From: Oscillospiraceae bacterium
GTDB lineage: Bacteria > Bacillota > Clostridia > Oscillospirales > Acutalibacteraceae
Direction: 5' to 3'
Assembly (NCBI GenBank): GCA_009786735.1
Contig: WQRM01000007.1
Span: forward strand, 1-17,938
Length of the DNA: 17,938 nucleotides
Below, piece after piece: positions 2,309 to 13,775 of the stretch; within the stretch, counting starts at the first letter, position 1; the number at the start of each line of letters is the position of its first letter. The position numbers and the translations under genes were made by a program. Below the pieces are notes generated by a model. It saw nothing but the letters and a program-made list of their open reading frames with translations. It was not told where the DNA came from and made no database searches.

Positions 2309-2938
2309 ATGAAATTGATTGCGATTTTGCTGGTGTTGCTTGTGCTGGCGGGCTGCGGTTCGGCGGCGGTGGTGGATGGCGAGCATGACGTTGAAACCAC
2401 CACGGAAGTGCACACAACTGTCGAGGAAAGCACAGCGACGGAAGCAACAACGACCGAATCTGCCACGCTGCCTGTATTTACACCCAGAGAGCCTAATGAG
2501 ATTACGCTTTCCGACACATTAACGTTAATCGAAGTATTTGGTGAGTGGAATAATGTGCAGGAAGAAGTCTGGCTGCGCGATGAAGAAACCAGCGAGCTAA
2601 CCTTGTTATTTGAGCGCGCTGGATATGACCTGCATCCCAGTGTGCGCGGCGTTATCAACGAACGTTTTTTTACCGTTACCCTTTTTGTCCCCGATTCCTC
2701 CGGAGGGTTTCCTCGGTTCATTTATGACATTGAACAACGTCGCAGCATTTACTTCGACAATATCGTGATTGGCGAAAACGGGCGCATTTATACCTACAGC
2801 AATGATGTTTGGGATTGGCTTGACCCGCCGGTGTATTATTTCTACATTGATGAACTTGAAGATAGCGATGAACCTACTTTGCGCGAAACTGGTTTGACCG
2901 TGAGCGAATGGTCTCGTTTGCGACGCGAACAGCAATAA
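2309..2938 (+). CDS. Lipoprotein B: secreted lipoprotein with Thr-rich linker
   Basis: Predicted 209-residue lipoprotein of unknown function. The signal peptide ends in LAGC (Cys16), followed by a long Thr/Glu-rich linker (about 28-52), then a roughly 150-residue domain rich in aromatic and acidic residues. Its C-terminal part alternates short strands, for example IYFDNIVIGENGRIYTY, suggesting a beta-rich fold. Unlike lipoproteins A and C it has no DxDxDG loop. The start is clear: AAGGAGG stands 8 nt before the ATG, under a strong extended -10 promoter. The 3' half is visibly poorer in G+C than the neighbouring ADH gene. It appears monocistronic, with a separate promoter before the ADH, although no terminator hairpin is seen between them. 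Confidence 0.88.
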   Translation: MKLIAILLVLLVLAGCGSAAVVDGEHDVETTTEVHTTVEESTATEATTTESATLPVFTPREPNEITLSDTLTLIEVFGEWNNVQEEVWLRDEETSELTLLFERAGYDLHPSVRGVINERFFTVTLFVPDSSGGFPRFIYDIEQRRSIYFDNIVIGENGRIYTYSNDVWDWLDPPVYYFYIDELEDSDEPTLRETGLTVSEWSRLRREQQ

Positions 2939-4887: not shown

Positions 4888-5736
4888 TCACTCCGCGTGC
4901 TCCGGCGCATCGCGATACACCCGCTGCGGCTGCTGCATATACAGCCCATGCACGTCGTCAGGCGGCGCAGCACCGGGCTGGCGCGGCATGTGCGCAGGCG
5001 CAGGCACAGGATGCGTGAACCGCGACGGCTCATAGTGCCGCGCTGCCTCGTAGGTATGCCGCGGCGGCGGCTGATCAAGCATATACCGCTGCATCAACAG
5101 CTGCGACGCCGTCATGCAGCTGTCTTGGCGCGCGGACTCTTGCGCTTGCATCGGCACGGCGGATGCCACGGGCGCTGCAGGAACGTCCACGACTTCGGGC
5201 ACGGCTGCCTCCGCTGTGATTGCCGCTGCACCCGACGCAGGGGCTACGCCACCGGTTGGACCACACGCCCACCAAGGCATCGCCACAGGAAAACTGCACT
5301 CACGACCATCCGGCGACACGATGCGGAAATTACGCACACAAAAGCCTCGACGGCATGGGTCGTTGCAGCTTTCCATGTCGCCGCAACAGCCGCAGTTGGG
5401 CATCATCGGTGGTATGGGCGGGAATGCCGTGCTTGTGCCACAGCATCCGCCGCCGCCAAAGCCGGGGATGCCACAGCCGCCCATGGGCGTGCAGCCCGGG
5501 AACATCGAGCCAAAGTTATTCATTAATCCACCAAACATATTGCTACTCCCTGTTGTGTTATTGGACTGGTTTGCGTTGTTGTTCGCGTTATTGTTCGTGT
5601 TGTTGTTGATGTTGACATTCTGGTTGGCATTGAGCCCACCAAGAAGACCGCAGGGATTACACCAGCCAAATCCCCACGGCGCGCCGCCAAAACACCCGGC
5701 AGGTGCACCAACGCAACAGTTGCAATCATTCAGCAT
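4888..5736 (-). CDS. Cys-rich, Asn-rich low-complexity protein of unknown function
   Basis: Predicted 282-residue protein I do not recognise. It has no signal peptide. Eighteen of its 19 cysteines fall in residues 1-158: an N-terminal group (Cys5, 7, 8, 15, 26, 29), then Cys82-99 in Gly-rich sequence, and a dense block from Cys115 to Cys158. An Asn-rich tract (about 36-60, with NNN runs) separates the first two groups. An Ala/Val/Pro linker (about 163-200) follows, and the tail is rich in Pro, His, Tyr and Arg. Such composition is seen in spore-coat and other cross-linked surface-layer proteins, but no homology is claimed. AGGGGG stands 8 nt before the ATG, closely resembling the ADH ribosome site. 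I found no convincing promoter for it in the 100 bp before the start. Confidence 0.8.
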   Translation of the reverse strand: MLNDCNCCVGAPAGCFGGAPWGFGWCNPCGLLGGLNANQNVNINNNTNNNANNNANQSNNTTGSSNMFGGLMNNFGSMFPGCTPMGGCGIPGFGGGGCCGTSTAFPPIPPMMPNCGCCGDMESCNDPCRRGFCVRNFRIVSPDGRECSFPVAMPWWACGPTGGVAPASGAAAITAEAAVPEVVDVPAAPVASAVPMQAQESARQDSCMTASQLLMQRYMLDQPPPRHTYEAARHYEPSRFTHPVPAPAHMPRQPGAAPPDDVHGLYMQQPQRVYRDAPEHAE

Positions 5737-5800
5737 ATGTAAATCCCCCTTGGTGTAATATATGCGCCCGCCAAGCCAGTGGTGCGGCGTGAAAAAAATC

Positions 5801-5829
5801 TTGCGTATTTGCCAAAAATGTGGTATACT
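5801..5829 (+). promoter_or_regulatory. Extended -10 promoter of the paralog-holB-ricT-ferredoxin operon
   Basis: TTGCGT (5801-5806), a 17-nt spacer, then TGG-TATACT (5821-5829). The TGn extension should offset the imperfect -35. A run of seven A lies just upstream, as at the ADH promoter. The predicted transcription start is near 5836, about 120 nt before the first start codon. Confidence 0.75.
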
Positions 5830-5835
5830 AGATAT

Positions 5836-5955
5836 TAGACGCTAAGGCAATTAGCAACTTGCTTGCCGCAAGTGAGGAATTTTGCGAAACAGTGCGACAA
5901 AGAAGTATGCAAGGGAGATTTAGCCCCTGCAAAAACAATTCAGGAGGAAGAACCT
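5836..5955 (+). ncRNA. Structured 5' leader, possible cis-regulatory RNA
   Basis: This 120-nt untranslated leader contains three hairpins in a row. The first is GCTAA/TTAGC (5841-5855). The second is ACTTGC/GCAAGT (5857-5873). The third pairs TGCAAGGG (5908-5915) with CCCCTGCA (5924-5931) with one A-C mismatch. The third stem lies about 12 nt before the AGGAGG site and could influence initiation. I cannot match it to the c-di-GMP, cobalamin, THF or SAM riboswitch consensus. A TTG within it opens a reading frame into the gene, but that has no ribosome site. Confidence 0.45.
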
Positions 5956-6429
5956 ATGAAACGCATCGCACAACTTACCCTCGTCGCACTACTCGCCCTT
6001 GCTTTGGTGCTGCCCGCAGCAGCCATCGCAAACATCGACGGCTCCGAACCCGAGTGGGACGGCTACGCTGGCATCCGCCCGATGAGCGACGTGCTCGTCG
6101 TTGGTGACATCGAACCCGATGTTGAACCAATCGAAGCCGATCCCTACGCCGAAGAGCCCAACCGCGCACAATTCGCCCGCAGCAACAACGACCTGCCCGA
6201 CAACTACGTTGAACCCATCTATGTAGACGGCGTAGCCGACGGCATCATGGCCATCAGCGCGGAAATCGGCGGTGGTTACGCGGAAATCGAGCCCATCAAC
6301 TATCCGGGCATCGAAGCCATCAGCGCAGAAACCGGGCACAGTGTTCCCGTGGCACTGTTCTATGCAACACTGGCCGTGGCCGTGCTGGCACTGGTGTTGG
6401 CCGTGGTCGCACTGGTGAAGAAAAAATAA
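5956..6429 (+). CDS. Secreted, C-terminally membrane-anchored protein, paralog 1
   Basis: Predicted 157-residue protein of an unrecognised family. Residues 1-25 form a signal peptide ending in LPAAAIA. A conserved box follows: NIDGSEPEWDGYAGIRPMSD (26-45). The middle is very acidic and has recurring EPI/IEPI and AISAE units (58-60, 86-88, 112-114, 99-103, 121-125). A single hydrophobic helix (about 129-153) ends in KKK, so the chain should be outside with a tiny cytoplasmic tail. AGGAGG precedes the ATG by 8 nt. The next gene encodes a paralog with the same order of parts. It is first in the operon that continues into holB and ricT, behind a structured leader. A surface-exposed or processed peptide role is conceivable, but no function is known to me. 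Confidence 0.88.
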   Translation: MKRIAQLTLVALLALALVLPAAAIANIDGSEPEWDGYAGIRPMSDVLVVGDIEPDVEPIEADPYAEEPNRAQFARSNNDLPDNYVEPIYVDGVADGIMAISAEIGGGYAEIEPINYPGIEAISAETGHSVPVALFYATLAVAVLALVLAVVALVKKK

Positions 6430-6462
6430 CACAAGCATCGACCAAAACCTTAGGAGGAAACC

Positions 6463-6918
6463 ATGAAACGCATTGTTCAACTGGCACTGGCTCTTGCGCT
6501 TGCCCTTGCCCTCATGCTGCCCGCCGCCGCCATTATCAACACTGACGGCACTGACCCCGACTGGGACGGCTACGAAGGCATTCGCCCCATGAGTGACGTT
6601 GTTGTCCTCAATGACGCTGAGGATCTCGATGACTATTCTGCCTATGAGCTTGATGCCATTGCAGACTACGACAGCGGCTTTGGCTTTGACGACCCCGAAT
6701 GGGATCGCCATCCCCTCGCCCGCGACGGCGAAGGCTATGCAGACATCGAACCCATCGCCATCGGCATTGAACCGATTAGCGCAGACAACACGATGATGAA
6801 CACGATTGTTCTCTGGGCTGCCCTCGGCATGGCCGCGCTGGCGCTGCTGCTGGCGATTATCGCGCTGGCAAAAGCCGGTCGCAAAAAACCCGCACGCATC
6901 AAAAATGATTTCTTCTAA
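6463..6918 (+). CDS. Secreted, C-terminally membrane-anchored protein, paralog 2
   Basis: Predicted 151-residue paralog of the preceding gene. The first 49 residues align without gaps: signal peptide (1-25), then NTDGTDPDWDGYEGIRPMSD (26-45). The middle diverged, but keeps acidic composition, a second DPEWD (77-81) and the IEPIA/IEPIS units (95-105). A hydrophobic helix (about 113-136) is followed by a longer basic tail, KAGRKKPARIKNDFF. AGGAGG precedes the ATG by 6 nt, and 33 bp separate it from paralog 1. HolB starts 9 bp downstream, with a ribosome site overlapping this stop codon, so the genes should be co-transcribed. This is a clear local tandem duplication followed by divergence of the core. 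Confidence 0.88.
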   Translation: MKRIVQLALALALALALMLPAAAIINTDGTDPDWDGYEGIRPMSDVVVLNDAEDLDDYSAYELDAIADYDSGFGFDDPEWDRHPLARDGEGYADIEPIAIGIEPISADNTMMNTIVLWAALGMAALALLLAIIALAKAGRKKPARIKNDFF

Positions 6919-6927
6919 GGAACTGCC

Positions 6928-7767
6928 ATGGCATTACCCACGCAATTGCATCTTATGCTAACTCGCGAAAGCCTCCCTCACGCCTTGTTGCTTGAGGGGG
7001 GCACGCAAGCTTTTCGGCGCGAAGTTGCGCTTGAACTTGCACAGGCGCTGCTGTGCGAAACTCCGCCGCATGACCCCGACCAAGCATCCCTGTTCGGCGA
7101 GCCCGAACCCACGCAAAAGCCCTGCAACACATGCAACCACTGCTACAAGGCCTTGCAGAACATACACCCCGACCTGCACTTGGCCGAAGGCGGCACGGGC
7201 GCGCGCTCGTTCCACATTGATGCCATCCGCGCGATTCGCCAGCAAGCGGCAGTGCTGCCCAACGAGGCCGAGCACAAAGTTTTCGTGCTGCACAACGCCC
7301 ACACCATGACCGCCGAGGCACAAAACGCGCTGCTGAAACTGCTGGAAGAGCCGCCCGACTATGTGTGCCTCATCCTGACCGCACCGGCACGCAAGTTGCT
7401 GCTGCAAACGGTCATTTCACGCACGGCAACCATCTACCTGGGTCCTGCCGCCGAAGAAGCCATTGACCCCGAGCGCGAGGCGCTGCTGCAGCAACACGCC
7501 ACGGCTATCACACAGGCGATGCTGCAAGGCGGGCGACCCTATGCCATGCTCGAAGCCACCGCCCCGCTTGAAGGCGACCGCGAGCTGCTGCGTGAGCTGC
7601 TGCCCTGCCTGCGCCGCGCCCTGCACGCTAAGCTGGTGGAGGACATCACCCTTGCGCCGCGCGCGCTGCAGCTCATCGACGAGCTGCGCAAACTGGAGGA
7701 TGCCTTGCTCCGCAACGCCAACCTCAACCTGCTCATCACGCGCCTAGCGGCACTGAACACGAAATAA
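6928..7767 (+). CDS. holB: DNA polymerase III delta' subunit (clamp loader)
   Basis: Predicted 279-residue delta' subunit of the clamp loader, which helps open and load the beta sliding clamp during replication. Zinc-module cysteines are all present: Cys43, Cys66, Cys69 and Cys72, followed by NIHPDLHL. The hallmark AQNALLKLLEEPP lies near 130-142. The P-loop is degenerate: EGGTQAFRREVA stands where GxxGxGK would be, so ATP binding is unlikely; E. coli delta' also does not hydrolyse ATP. The protein is somewhat shorter than many (about 320 residues). AAGGA overlaps the stop of the upstream gene and lies 6 nt before the ATG. The ricT gene follows after 44 bp, a pairing common in Bacillota. Only the two secreted paralogs upstream are unusual. 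Confidence 0.93.
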   Translation: MALPTQLHLMLTRESLPHALLLEGGTQAFRREVALELAQALLCETPPHDPDQASLFGEPEPTQKPCNTCNHCYKALQNIHPDLHLAEGGTGARSFHIDAIRAIRQQAAVLPNEAEHKVFVLHNAHTMTAEAQNALLKLLEEPPDYVCLILTAPARKLLLQTVISRTATIYLGPAAEEAIDPEREALLQQHATAITQAMLQGGRPYAMLEATAPLEGDRELLRELLPCLRRALHAKLVEDITLAPRALQLIDELRKLEDALLRNANLNLLITRLAALNTK

Positions 7768-7769
7768 AC

Positions 7770-7789
7770 ATGCGGAAATTCATCCGCAT
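7770..7789. other. Hairpin between holB and ricT
   Basis: ATGCGGA (7770-7776) and TCCGCAT (7783-7789) form a perfect 7-bp stem with a 6-nt loop. No U-run follows, so it is not an intrinsic terminator. It lies 23 nt before the ricT start and may be an RNA stability or processing element. Confidence 0.4.
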
Positions 7790-7811
7790 TGTCAAATAGA
7801 AAGGGAACCCT

Positions 7812-9095
7812 ATGGCCATCATCATTGGCGTGCGATTTCGCGAAATCGGGCGCGTGTACTATTTCGACCCCGGCGACTATGAGGTAACGAAAGGCGACCG
7901 CGTTATCGTGGAAACCGCCCGCGGCGTCGAGTGCGGCGAGGTTGCACAAAACCGCACCGAAGTGCCGGACGAAGAAATCAAAAAGCCGCTCAAGCCGCTG
8001 CTGCGCATCGCCACCGAGCAAGACCTCGCCAACGTTGCCGGCAAAGCCGCCAAGGAGGCCGAGGCCTTCAAGGTTGGCGAAGAGAAAATCGCCAAACATG
8101 CGCTAGACATGAAGCTCGTCAACGTTGAATACACATTTGACGGCAGCAAAATCGTCTTCAACTTCACCGCCGACCAACGCGTGGATTTCCGCGCGCTCGT
8201 GCGTGACCTCGCCTCCACCTTCCGCACACGCATTGAGCTGCGGCAAATCGGCGTGCGCGACGAAGCGAAGCTGCTGGGCGGACTGGGCATTTGCGGGCGA
8301 CCGTTTTGCTGCAGCACCTTCATGGGCGACTTCCATCCCGTGAGCATCAACATGGCCAAAGGGCAGGGGCTTAGCCTCAATCCCACCAAAATTTCGGGCA
8401 CCTGTGGGCGGCTGATGTGCTGCCTGAAGTATGAAGAAACCGCCTATGCCGACGCCGCAAAAACCTTGCCGCGCGTGGGTTCAACGATCGAAACGCCCGA
8501 GGGTTCGGGGCGGGTGCTGGAAGTCAACGCGGTGTCGCAGGACATTAAGGTCAAGCTCGCAAACCGCATGGACGGTCCGCCGGTGGTGTTCCGCTTTGAC
8601 AACGAAAAGGGCGTGATTCGCAAGCCGATGAAGGAAAACAGCCTGCGCAGCACTTCCCTGTTGGGCGAGCTGGATGCCGCACCGTTGCGCAGTGTTGCGG
8701 ACTCCCCGCCGCCGCGCCGCGCCGAGCAACAACCTCGCCAGCCGCGTAATCAACGCAATCAGCCTGCACAAGAGCGCAACCAAAATCAAGGGCAAAGGGC
8801 TGCCGCCGAGTCTGGCGAAGCTAAGTCGGGGCAATCGCGCAACCGCAATCGCAACCGCAACAACCGTAATCGCAACCCACAAAATCAACAGGGCAATCAG
8901 CAGCCCAGGCAACCGCAACAGCCCAAGCCGCAGCAAAGTGCGCCCACGCCGCAACCACCGCCAGCGCAAGGCGAAATCAGACGCGCAAACGCGCCAAAGC
9001 CAGAAGGTCAGCAGCAAAACAACAACCGCCGCCAGCCCTGGCATCGCAATCGACGCAAACCAAACAACAATGGCAACAACAATAATCAAAACTAG
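7812..9095 (+). CDS. ricT: PSP1-domain protein RicT/YaaT with long Asn/Gln/Arg tail
   Basis: Predicted 427-residue PSP1-domain protein of the RicT (YaaT) family. In Bacillus subtilis, RicT acts with RicA and RicF in an Fe-S-bearing complex that governs RNase Y mRNA maturation and affects sporulation and competence. The PSP1 core spans about 1-260. The cysteine sets are conserved: CGRPFCC (161-167) and CGRLMCC (198-204), which include the cluster ligands of the family. From about 290 to the end the chain is low-complexity, dominated by Arg, Asn, Gln and Pro (RNRNRNNRNRN-type repeats), strongly basic and probably disordered, suitable for RNA contact; this tail is much longer than in B. subtilis. 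AAAGGGA precedes the ATG by 5 nt. Ferredoxin follows with a ribosome site overlapping this stop. Confidence 0.94.
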   Translation: MAIIIGVRFREIGRVYYFDPGDYEVTKGDRVIVETARGVECGEVAQNRTEVPDEEIKKPLKPLLRIATEQDLANVAGKAAKEAEAFKVGEEKIAKHALDMKLVNVEYTFDGSKIVFNFTADQRVDFRALVRDLASTFRTRIELRQIGVRDEAKLLGGLGICGRPFCCSTFMGDFHPVSINMAKGQGLSLNPTKISGTCGRLMCCLKYEETAYADAAKTLPRVGSTIETPEGSGRVLEVNAVSQDIKVKLANRMDGPPVVFRFDNEKGVIRKPMKENSLRSTSLLGELDAAPLRSVADSPPPRRAEQQPRQPRNQRNQPAQERNQNQGQRAAAESGEAKSGQSRNRNRNRNNRNRNPQNQQGNQQPRQPQQPKPQQSAPTPQPPPAQGEIRRANAPKPEGQQQNNNRRQPWHRNRRKPNNNGNNNNQN

Positions 9096-9107
9096 GAGGA
9101 TTTTCCC

Positions 9108-9287
9108 ATGGCTTTTCGGATCAACGAAGAATGCATCTCCTGTGGCCTGTGCGAGGCCACCTGCCCCAACGAATGCATCAGCGAAGTGGACGGCGTATTC
9201 GTCATCGACGAAAGCAAATGCGTCGGCGACGACTGCAAAGAGTGCGTGGACATGTGCCCCGTTGGCGCCATCGTGCCCGCAGAATAG
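9108..9287 (+). CDS. Small 2[4Fe-4S] ferredoxin
   Basis: Predicted 59-residue bacterial-type ferredoxin carrying low-potential electrons in the cytoplasm. The first motif, CISCGLCEATCP, has normal spacing (Cys9, 12, 15, 19). The second is expanded: Cys38, then Cys43, Cys46 and Cys50-Pro, i.e. CxxxxCxxCxxxCP rather than CxxCxxCxxxCP; an extra Cys23 lies between. Two clusters are still expected. AGGAGG overlaps the ricT stop and is 7 nt before the ATG. It closes the operon and is followed at once by a strong terminator. Its position next to RicT, an Fe-S protein, makes a functional link possible, but this is inference. Confidence 0.93.
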   Translation: MAFRINEECISCGLCEATCPNECISEVDGVFVIDESKCVGDDCKECVDMCPVGAIVPAE

Positions 9288-12473: not shown

Positions 12474-13742
12474 TTATGCTTCCACTGGAGCTGCTGCCAC
12501 TTCATGTGTCGGCGGATCTTTCTTGCATGCGCGCGCAAACAGGAACAAGAAGCCCAGTTGCACCACAAACAACCCCGCCAGCACCGCGTACAGGTGGCTG
12601 AGCGTTGGGCTCACGTTGGGCGGCGCGCTCGGCGTGATGTCGAGAATCATCGTGGCAATTTGCGGACCCACGAGGGCAGCAATCGCCCACGCGGTGAGCA
12701 TATAGCCTTGAATGGTTGCCAGCTGCTTCATGCCATACTGCTGATTGAGGATTTCTGGCAAACACGCAAAGCCCGCGCCAAAGAAGAACTGCACCACAAA
12801 GATAATCGCGAACGACGACCAGTGCGAAAATCCGCCAATGAAAATCGCCAGCGCACACGTCGCGATCGAAGCGATGGACATCACGTAGTACGGCAGGTGT
12901 TTCTTGTTCGTCTTGTCTTGCGACGATGCCATGATGAGTCGTCCCACCAAGTTGCCGCCGCCTGCGGTGAGCGTGCAGAACAGCACAATCATTGCGCGGT
13001 TGAGGTTTTCGTCCAGCCCCAGCATGATGTAAATCTGCTGTTCGTGGCTCATCAGCGCCAAACCAGCCGCAATGTTGATGAACAGCACCACCCACAGATA
13101 CACAAACTTGGGCTTGAAGACCACTTGCCTCACCGTCAGCGTGGCAGCCGCAGCCTCATAGGGCTTGAGCTCGGGGCGGTCGATGATGACATACGCCACA
13201 AAGCACAGCACACCATACAGCGCGGTGAGGATGTACAGCGCCACGTAGACCGAGAAGTTTTGCAGCAGCACGCCGATAATCGGGTTGCCCACCAGCCCCG
13301 CCAAGCCAAACGCAGCAATCGCCACACCGGCAGCGAAGCCCTTGCGGTCGTCAAACCACATCATCAGCGTCTTCACCGGGGTGAGATAACCCAAGCCCAG
13401 CCCAATGCCTTGCACCGGACCAAAGCCGATTAGCGCCAACACAGGGCTGCCCACTTGCACGCCAATGGCCGTGATTAACCAGCCCGCCGTGAAGAAGATG
13501 AACGTGTACAGCGACGCACGCTTCACGCTGCGCTCCACAAGTTTGCCGCCGAAGGCCGCCGTCATGCCCAAGAAAAACAGTGCGAGCATGAAGCACAACG
13601 TAAGCAGAAACGGCGTGAACGCGGGCGCATGCGCAGCAATGTCCTCGCGGAACAGCGTCCAGCAATACACCGAACCCGTGGAGAAACTCATGAATATCAT
13701 CGGCCAAAAGCCGCTGATCCATTTCCCTTTTGGAAGTCTCAT
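12474..13742 (-). CDS. MFS transporter, OFA (oxalate/formate antiporter-like) family
   Basis: Predicted 422-residue, 12-helix major facilitator transporter of the OFA family, whose known members exchange small carboxylates such as oxalate and formate. The stretch GLGYLTPVKTLMMWFDDRKG, followed by FAAGVAIAAFGLAG, is the characteristic cytoplasmic loop 4-5 signature (YxxPVxxxxkWFPdrkG). The substrate is unproven. GAGGA lies 8 nt before the ATG at 13742; another ATG at 13757 would add five residues but has a poorer site. The AEC gene ends 33 bp upstream with no terminator or promoter between, so the two transporters form an operon. A terminator follows the stop. Confidence 0.93.
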   Translation of the reverse strand: MRLPKGKWISGFWPMIFMSFSTGSVYCWTLFREDIAAHAPAFTPFLLTLCFMLALFFLGMTAAFGGKLVERSVKRASLYTFIFFTAGWLITAIGVQVGSPVLALIGFGPVQGIGLGLGYLTPVKTLMMWFDDRKGFAAGVAIAAFGLAGLVGNPIIGVLLQNFSVYVALYILTALYGVLCFVAYVIIDRPELKPYEAAAATLTVRQVVFKPKFVYLWVVLFINIAAGLALMSHEQQIYIMLGLDENLNRAMIVLFCTLTAGGGNLVGRLIMASSQDKTNKKHLPYYVMSIASIATCALAIFIGGFSHWSSFAIIFVVQFFFGAGFACLPEILNQQYGMKQLATIQGYMLTAWAIAALVGPQIATMILDITPSAPPNVSPTLSHLYAVLAGLFVVQLGFLFLFARACKKDPPTHEVAAAPVEA

Positions 13743-13775
13743 AGCAACAGTCCTCATCTATCCAAAGTTTTTTTG

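Follow-up and report, generated by a model that had tools for sequence, protein, structure and literature searches.

Several described systems share parts of the architecture of the proteins discussed here. AmaP, a small protein of the membrane, recruits a soluble partner through its tail, and the second of our two proteins (gene 2) gives a weak match to its profile (NCBIfam NF033218), which at 12.9 bits lies far below the 55-bit cut-off. The LPXTG sortase-dependent surface proteins resemble the pair in having a signal peptide, an extracellular part, a C-terminal helix and a basic end; one relative of the pair (from genome G004) weakly matches a profile of this class (NF053819), with 17.2 bits against a cut-off of 47. 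Finally, alkaliphiles display acidic matter at the cell surface; passages in PMC12457358 describe teichuronopeptide and the Asn- and acid-rich segment of a membrane-bound cytochrome c, for which an H+-capacitor model is given.

Here we analyze a tandem gene pair in a stretch of 17,938 nucleotides (the window) on contig WQRM01000007.1 of an Oscillospiraceae bacterium. Sequence comparisons suggest that the pair belongs to a family of membrane proteins that is undescribed and, to date, limited to a single genus. While the anatomy of these proteins is well supported by their sequences, the function proposed below is an inference.

A gene pair ahead of holB and ricT

The features of the locus to which we refer throughout are as follows:

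5801..5829, + strand: promoter-like site TTGCGT-17 nt-TATACT with an extended -10 (TGG), ahead of gene 1; a sequence reading, the -35 matching at 3 of 6 positions
5956..6429, + strand: gene 1 (tail-less KKK branch), 157 aa; compared with the first copies in G001 and G010, its dN/dS is 0.28 and 0.37
5956..6024, + strand: putative signal peptide of gene 1, approximately residues 1-23, read from the sequence; cleavage is predicted
6031..6090, + strand: W-G box of gene 1, residues 26-45; invariant columns in 13 sub-lineage rows
6364..6426, + strand: membrane helix core and KKK tail of gene 1, residues 137-157
6463..6918, + strand: gene 2 (tail-bearing branch; counterpart of the genus-wide gene), 151 aa
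6538..6597, + strand: W-G box of gene 2, residues 26-45; invariant columns in 13 sub-lineage rows
6817..6870, + strand: membrane helix core of gene 2, residues 119-136
6871..6915, + strand: basic tail of gene 2 ending in FF, residues 137-151, KAGRKKPARIKNDFF; presumably cytoplasmic; terminal [FY]F in 11 of 11 rows
6928..7767, + strand: holB (clamp loader delta prime); PF13177, E 5.4e-37
7812..9095, + strand: ricT (yaaT); RicT NF041131, 308.6 bits against a cut-off of 70

Both reading frames are intact, and the first-pass annotation of the window as encoding two paralogs ahead of holB-ricT holds, with secretion and membrane anchoring being predicted features. Each gene has its own AGGAGG ribosome site, at 5942-5947 (8 nt ahead of the ATG) for gene 1 and at 6452-6457 (5 nt ahead of the ATG) for gene 2. 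The reported overlap between the ribosome site of holB and the stop of gene 2 was likewise borne out: AAGGA runs across the TAA at 6916-6918, and the holB ATG follows at 6928 on the same strand with a 9-nt spacing. A BLASTP comparison of the two proteins recovers 47% identity over 128 aligned columns (E 3e-17), and the alignment is ungapped to about residue 53, as expected from the gap-free N-terminal alignment and diverging cores that had been described. By the substitution patterns discussed below, both genes look real and under purifying selection. The assembly of the window's genome (G000) is 71% complete and comprises 227 contigs; a search of it with gene 1 at E <= 10 recovered no further copy beyond the window pair.

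The pair is probably the first part of the holB-ricT transcription unit, in line with the co-transcription proposed earlier. The promoter-like site ahead of gene 1 is kept in the relatives G001 and G010 (as TATAAT in the latter), and is thus found in three genomes. A consensus promoter scan did not list this site; the sole plus-strand promoter that it returned was a 9-of-12 site at 5809-5836, with the total of the scan at about the level of shuffled sequences. A consensus scan of the plus strand from 5500 to 9200 found no terminator-like site.

The leader between the promoter-like site and gene 1 (5838-5955) is partly conserved in the three genomes and includes a short hairpin-like TGCAAGGG...CCCCTGCA; G001 lacks the first part of it, and its end is kept in both G001 and G010. 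Because of this partial conservation, an RNA element was sought in the leader, and was rejected upon finding no Rfam match and folding no stronger than that of shuffled sequences (z -0.86 and -0.20). Divergently oriented from gene 1, the minus strand of the window at 4888-5736 encodes a 282-aa Cys/Gly/Asn-rich protein with a NVNINNNTNN stretch, which is also present in the G001 record and has no library match above cut-off.

The W-G box and the acidic cores

The box near the N-terminus of both proteins had been given as N-x-DG-x-x-P-x-WDGY-x-GIRPMSD. It is present in both; however, the whole WDGY/GIRPMSD string is not invariant across the 13 aligned rows of the sub-lineage, in which the constant letters are N-x-D-G-x-x-P-x-W-x-G-x-x-x-I-x-P (N26, D28, G29, P32, W34, G36, I40 and P42). 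The cores share the further invariant letters R-x-x-x-A-R (R70, A74 and R75) in the same 13 rows. We evaluated the recurring IEPI and ISAE units noted earlier against 10,000 shuffles, using patterns that were written after the sequences had been seen. The IxPI-like unit recurs beyond chance in both cores, occurring four times in core 1 (reached by 0 of 10,000 shuffles) and twice in core 2 (8 of 10,000). The ISAE-like unit stands out in core 1, where it is found twice (9 of 10,000), and is weak in core 2, where it is found once (302 of 10,000).

The W-G box is not a mark of the family, for it is absent from eight other genomes of the genus that carry the family (G002, G004, G005, G006, G008, G009, G011 and G012); it marks one sub-lineage only. 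The profile search with this box that had been suggested yielded five weak matches outside the genus among 394 genomes of the order, a set that includes that of the window. Two of these, in G462 and G501, were opened and look unrelated, the remaining ones being in G059, G438 and G488. The G501 locus (L242:1501-1935) encodes a protein built along similar lines, in which a signal peptide precedes a long acidic stretch rich in D/Y, a single helix and a tail, and which has no visible sequence relation to the family.

A family recognized by its C-terminus

What defines the family is its C-terminus, namely a membrane helix rich in small residues, followed by a basic tail that is probably cytoplasmic and ends in [FY]F. 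In the C-terminal alignment the final F and a preceding F or Y are present in 11 of 11 rows, and one Ala is common to all. Gene 2 has all three of these marks. Gene 1 has the helix, lacks the basic tail and ends in KKK; hence, the basic tail that had been attributed to both proteins is found in gene 2, whereas that of gene 1 amounts to KKK. A scan of about 1.6 Mb from 11 genomes of the genus, a sample chosen to include the family loci, for ORFs of 90 codons or more that combine a helix, a basic tail and an [FY]F end by an in-house rule returned nine, all of them family members. In these comparisons the helix plus tail is the part kept across the genus.

Distribution in the genus and the slot ahead of holB

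Of the 14 genomes of the genus, 12 gave a match in our search. The G007 match was dropped because it sits in a 540-aa transporter-like ORF, and a second match in G004 (E 0.046) was also dropped. The family is accordingly present in 11 of 14 genomes, the three in which our search did not recover it being G003, G007 and G013. The slot ahead of holB is visible in 11 genomes, being out of view in G003 and G007 (contig ends) and in G009 (no ricT match). A family gene occupies it in nine of these 11, the exceptions being G012 and G013. In five genomes (G002, G004, G006, G008 and G011) there is one slot gene each; its product lacks the W-G box and consists of a signal peptide, an ectodomain that is Thr/Pro-rich or mildly acidic, and a C-terminal helix followed by a tail ending in YF. 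The most reduced version is seen in G005, where a 47-aa ORF with its own AGGAGG site encodes the helix and tail alone, ends in YNSYF and has no ectodomain. Two or three copies per genome are seen only in the W-G-box sub-lineage: G001 and G010 have three copies each ahead of holB-ricT, and among further contigs one has three copies and another has two, one of each branch as in the window.

In five of the nine occupied slots (G002, G004, G005, G006 and G011) a gene for a PF06153 c-di-AMP receptor lies between the family gene and holB. This gene is absent from the slot in G000, G001, G010 and G008; a copy is present elsewhere in G000 and G010, and none was found in G001 and G008. For comparison, a passage in PMC3814617 places yaaT, yaaR, tmk and holB together in STRING group 1.

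The link to replication and RNA-maturation genes proposed earlier therefore stands as a positional one, as the pair is not unlinked from holB throughout its relatives; however, it is breakable. G012 and G009 hold a family copy, ending in NYQKYF, away from holB, so the association is not obligatory, and G013 has darA-holB-ricT without a family gene. That the family is a part of the holB/ricT machinery, as the common strand, the 9-nt spacing, the overlapping ribosome site and the nine retained slots might suggest, is hardly credible given these displaced and missing copies, the lack of such a gene at the ricT locus of eight genomes outside the genus (by in-house rules) and the predicted export of the protein, whose neighbors work in the cytoplasm.

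Two branches with signs of purifying selection

A tree of 15 proteins of the W-G-box sub-lineage separates the tail-bearing from the tail-less KKK forms with a support of 98/99. No other inner branch of the tree has strong support, and among the tail-bearing rows P0015 is long. The tail-bearing side comprises gene 2 of the window, the last copies of G001 and G010 and proteins from two further contigs, while the KKK side comprises gene 1 and nine others. A simple local duplication is not supported for the window genes, which are not a recent duplicate, since the well supported split that separates them is shared by other genomes. Gene 2 is rather the tail-bearing ortholog and gene 1 a member of an older tail-less branch.

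Selection was gauged with the Nei-Gojobori method against copies of two relatives, giving dN/dS values, rough because some dS values exceed 1, of 0.28-0.37 for gene 1, 0.29-0.32 for gene 2 and 0.10-0.11 for holB. Comparisons from three genomes, subject to the same caveat, span 0.20-0.37 for the whole gene and 0.09-0.25 for the helix plus tail. The core of gene 1 evolves faster, with values up to 0.56 against 0.09-0.17 for its helix plus tail.

Searches beyond the genus

The claim that the family is unrecognized withstood our searches in that neither genes 1 and 2 nor their relatives have a Pfam or NCBIfam match above the curated cut-off. Among the phage and defense libraries, the best PHROGs match for four proteins had an E of 0.18, and PADLOC returned none at E <= 1; the best sequence match of the family profile in PDB had an E of 0.032. 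With a profile of the C-terminus we searched 200 genomes of the bacterial family (three of them from the genus), where the best E outside the genus among the matches listed was 5.9e-5, and 394 genomes of the order, where four weak matches were found outside the genus (G507, G414, G219 and G289). Four of the matches from the 200-genome search were opened (one in G219, two in G070 and one in G142), and none ends in [FY]F. One of them, a 377-aa ORF of G070, has a signal peptide, an ectodomain, a helix and a charged tail and was rejected as it is otherwise different and lacks the [FY]F end. When the G507 and G414 matches were opened, no such gene was seen. Likewise, no gene encoding a helix plus basic tail was detected by in-house rules at the ricT locus of eight genomes outside the genus, in seven of which holB is adjacent. 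The separate protein searches that yielded the further contigs are limited to relatives with short exact words in common, and one of them scored no more than 8000 candidates. A literature search, within the library and the words used, retrieved no described [FY]F-tail membrane family and no membrane family linked to holB in termite Oscillospiraceae.

Structure, acidity and habitat

An AlphaFold model of gene 2 built from 22 aligned rows predicts helices at residues 2-28, 78-81 (short) and 108-138, with a low-confidence middle (mean pLDDT 63.2, pTM 0.31), and is too poor outside the two main helices for fold comparison. The ectodomain has 0-3 K/R residues in all 22 aligned members (the G005 ORF is not among these). 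Its net acidity per residue is 0.18-0.23 in the W-G-box sub-lineage, 0.20 in G012 and G009 (0.195 and 0.200) and 0.06-0.12 in the other five. When the exported ORFs sampled from G000 (28), G001 (27) and G010 (15) are ordered by acidity, family proteins take the first and second places, in top lists that lack copy 1 of G001 and G010. As a separate observation, a set of lipoproteins (window 2309-2938; L162, L050, L051 and L185) shares the near-identical leader MKL[LI]A[LIMV]LL[VI]L..L.GCGSA, in most cases followed by an acidic Thr-rich linker and then by different mature domains; four copies are present in the G000 sample, and such proteins also occur in G001 and G010.

The nearest named records, both of them Oscillospiraceae assemblies, are WQWM01000001 (Emb289P1bin98; G001) and WRBQ01000027 (Lab288P1bin84; G010). 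In the sample codes, which according to passages of PMC7024585 give the host and the gut compartment, Emb289 denotes Embiratermes neotenicus and Lab288 Labiotermes labralis, and the same source describes the P1 compartment as highly alkaline. A passage of PMC10018900 states this for soil feeders in general and extends it by extrapolation to L. labralis.

We compared the acidity of exported ORFs in G000, G001 and G010 with that in seven other members of the genus, using simple in-house rules for ORFs and signal peptides on samples of ten genomes (G002, G003, G007 and G009 being left out). The difference has a p of 0.02 with the family included (70 versus 75 ORFs) and of 0.09 without it (median 0.054 for 64 ORFs versus 0.043 for 73). 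The per-genome medians overlap (0.067 in G012 and 0.065 in G013 against 0.052 in G000), and the cytoplasmic ORFs of the three genomes are shifted in the same direction as the exported ones. For these reasons a genome-wide alkaline signature was rejected as evidence, and we do not posit an alkaline-adapted surface proteome.

Functional hypotheses

We tentatively favor, with a probability of roughly 0.38, a model wherein the family forms an acidic brush on the cell surface, tethered to the membrane and equipped with a tail for docking in the cytoplasm, which has been multiplied in the W-G-box sub-lineage. Both proteins would be type I single-pass membrane proteins; their sequences show a signal-peptide-like start, a low-complexity acidic ectodomain nearly devoid of lysine and arginine, one membrane helix rich in small residues and, in the widespread form, a basic tail ending in [FY]F. 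The positive-inside rule points to an N-out/C-in topology, such that the N-terminus would be exported and cleaved and the tail would stay in the cytoplasm. The helices might pack side by side via their small-residue face, with the tail-bearing copy docking to a cytoplasmic partner through its basic-aromatic end. The acidic ectodomains might form a negatively charged brush at the outer face of the membrane that holds cations and protons, and the tail-less KKK copies would serve to multiply this brush in the sub-lineage of the window. Such a brush would be of help in the highly alkaline P1 of higher termites, the gut compartment from which the two named members of the sub-lineage were binned.

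Nearly as likely is the possibility that these proteins are only a docking platform, with the tail recruiting a cytoplasmic protein, the ectodomain being a freely drifting spacer and the tail-less copies acting as dilutors or drifting themselves. The minimal G005 ORF, being helix plus tail alone, fits this explanation well, as do the [FY]F end in 11 of 11 aligned tail-bearing members and the finding that all nine helix-tail-[FY]F ORFs in the approximately 1.6 Mb sample, chosen to include the loci, belong to the family. However, it leaves unexplained why the tail-less branch has been retained under constraint (dN/dS 0.20-0.37), why that branch, like the tail-bearing one, retains the invariant letters of the box and of R-x-x-x-A-R, and why the K/R content of the ectodomain is low in 22 of 22 aligned members. 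It is the constraint on the tail-less branch and the low K/R content of every aligned ectodomain that lead us to favor the brush. Against the brush stands the observation that the G012 and G009 copies are as acidic as those of the sub-lineage (0.195 and 0.200). The chief objections to it are two: the G005 ORF has no ectodomain, which argues against the brush as the core function, and the sampled exported proteins show no significant alkaline signature.

A more elaborate form of the brush model, which we consider rather doubtful, is a two-sided device for extreme alkalinity, in which a docked tail-bearing member seeds the brush and its tail-less paralogs multiply it. If true, this would represent a protein-based proton and cation buffer in place of an acidic wall polymer, with docking to a cytoplasmic partner from the c-di-AMP/holB neighborhood, in bacteria of the termite P1 compartment, which ranks among the most alkaline habitats known.

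That the genes encode precursors of secreted peptides, the ectodomain being cleaved and set free to act as a signal or an antimicrobial, with conserved flanks and variable cores, is unlikely. The faster core of gene 1 (dN/dS up to 0.56 vs 0.09-0.17 for helix plus tail), the tandem copies and the invariant R-x-x-x-A-R, which could be a cut site, are compatible with this proposal. Nevertheless, the core is still under purifying selection, the G005 version has no ectodomain to release, and typical peptide signals do not resemble a core of this length and acidity. A scan of the window ORFs revealed no obvious processing or immunity gene directly adjoining the pair; further along, at least 3 kb downstream, the window encodes a membrane dipeptidase (PF01244, 10075-10938) and an MFS transporter (12474-13757).

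The C-terminus of the KKK copies could in principle be a cell-wall sorting signal, as sortase matches are present in 13 of 14 genomes of the genus (12 above the Pfam cut-off) and gene 1 has SAETG followed by the helix and KKK in the geometry of such a signal, but we regard this as very improbable: other KKK copies do not keep the T-G (SANVG, NAEIG, SAEVG, SADLNNG and SAELSDS), the proline is missing, ordinary sorting signals such as LPQTG and IPKTN in G001 occur in the same genus, and no sortase was found in the 71% complete G000. Sortase anchoring was rejected for lack of a kept motif.

The family adds undescribed, fast-evolving surface proteins with one fixed point, the helix plus [FY]F tail, and in its natural minimal version the conserved core stands apart from the variable ectodomain. 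If the brush model holds, it offers a testable handle on how anaerobic Clostridia live in a gut region whose pH is at the upper limit; if it does not, the pair is an example of a recognizable box that marks a sub-lineage and hides the true family.

Comparison with known systems

The nearest Pfam match in the family is to PF06679 (FAM174-like, DUF1180), which a relative from G004 matches over residues 8-146 with an E of 4.1e-5. However, at 24.5 bits this match is below the cut-off of 27.7 and it is seen in one of 22 aligned members; it probably reflects shared composition. The family differs from the LPXTG proteins in having no conserved sorting motif (LPxTG or NPxTN) before the helix. With the acid-rich surface matter of alkaliphiles it would share negative material at the outer face of the membrane, which passages in PMC12457358 propose to retain protons and repel hydroxide in those organisms; it differs in that no heme or enzyme domain was found in the family and in its occurrence in gut Clostridia, the likeness being a proposed one of function. 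Taken together, the plan of a signal peptide, disordered ectodomain, helix and tail is of a known kind, while the [FY]F tail, the ectodomain-free version and the tail-less branch are particular to this family.
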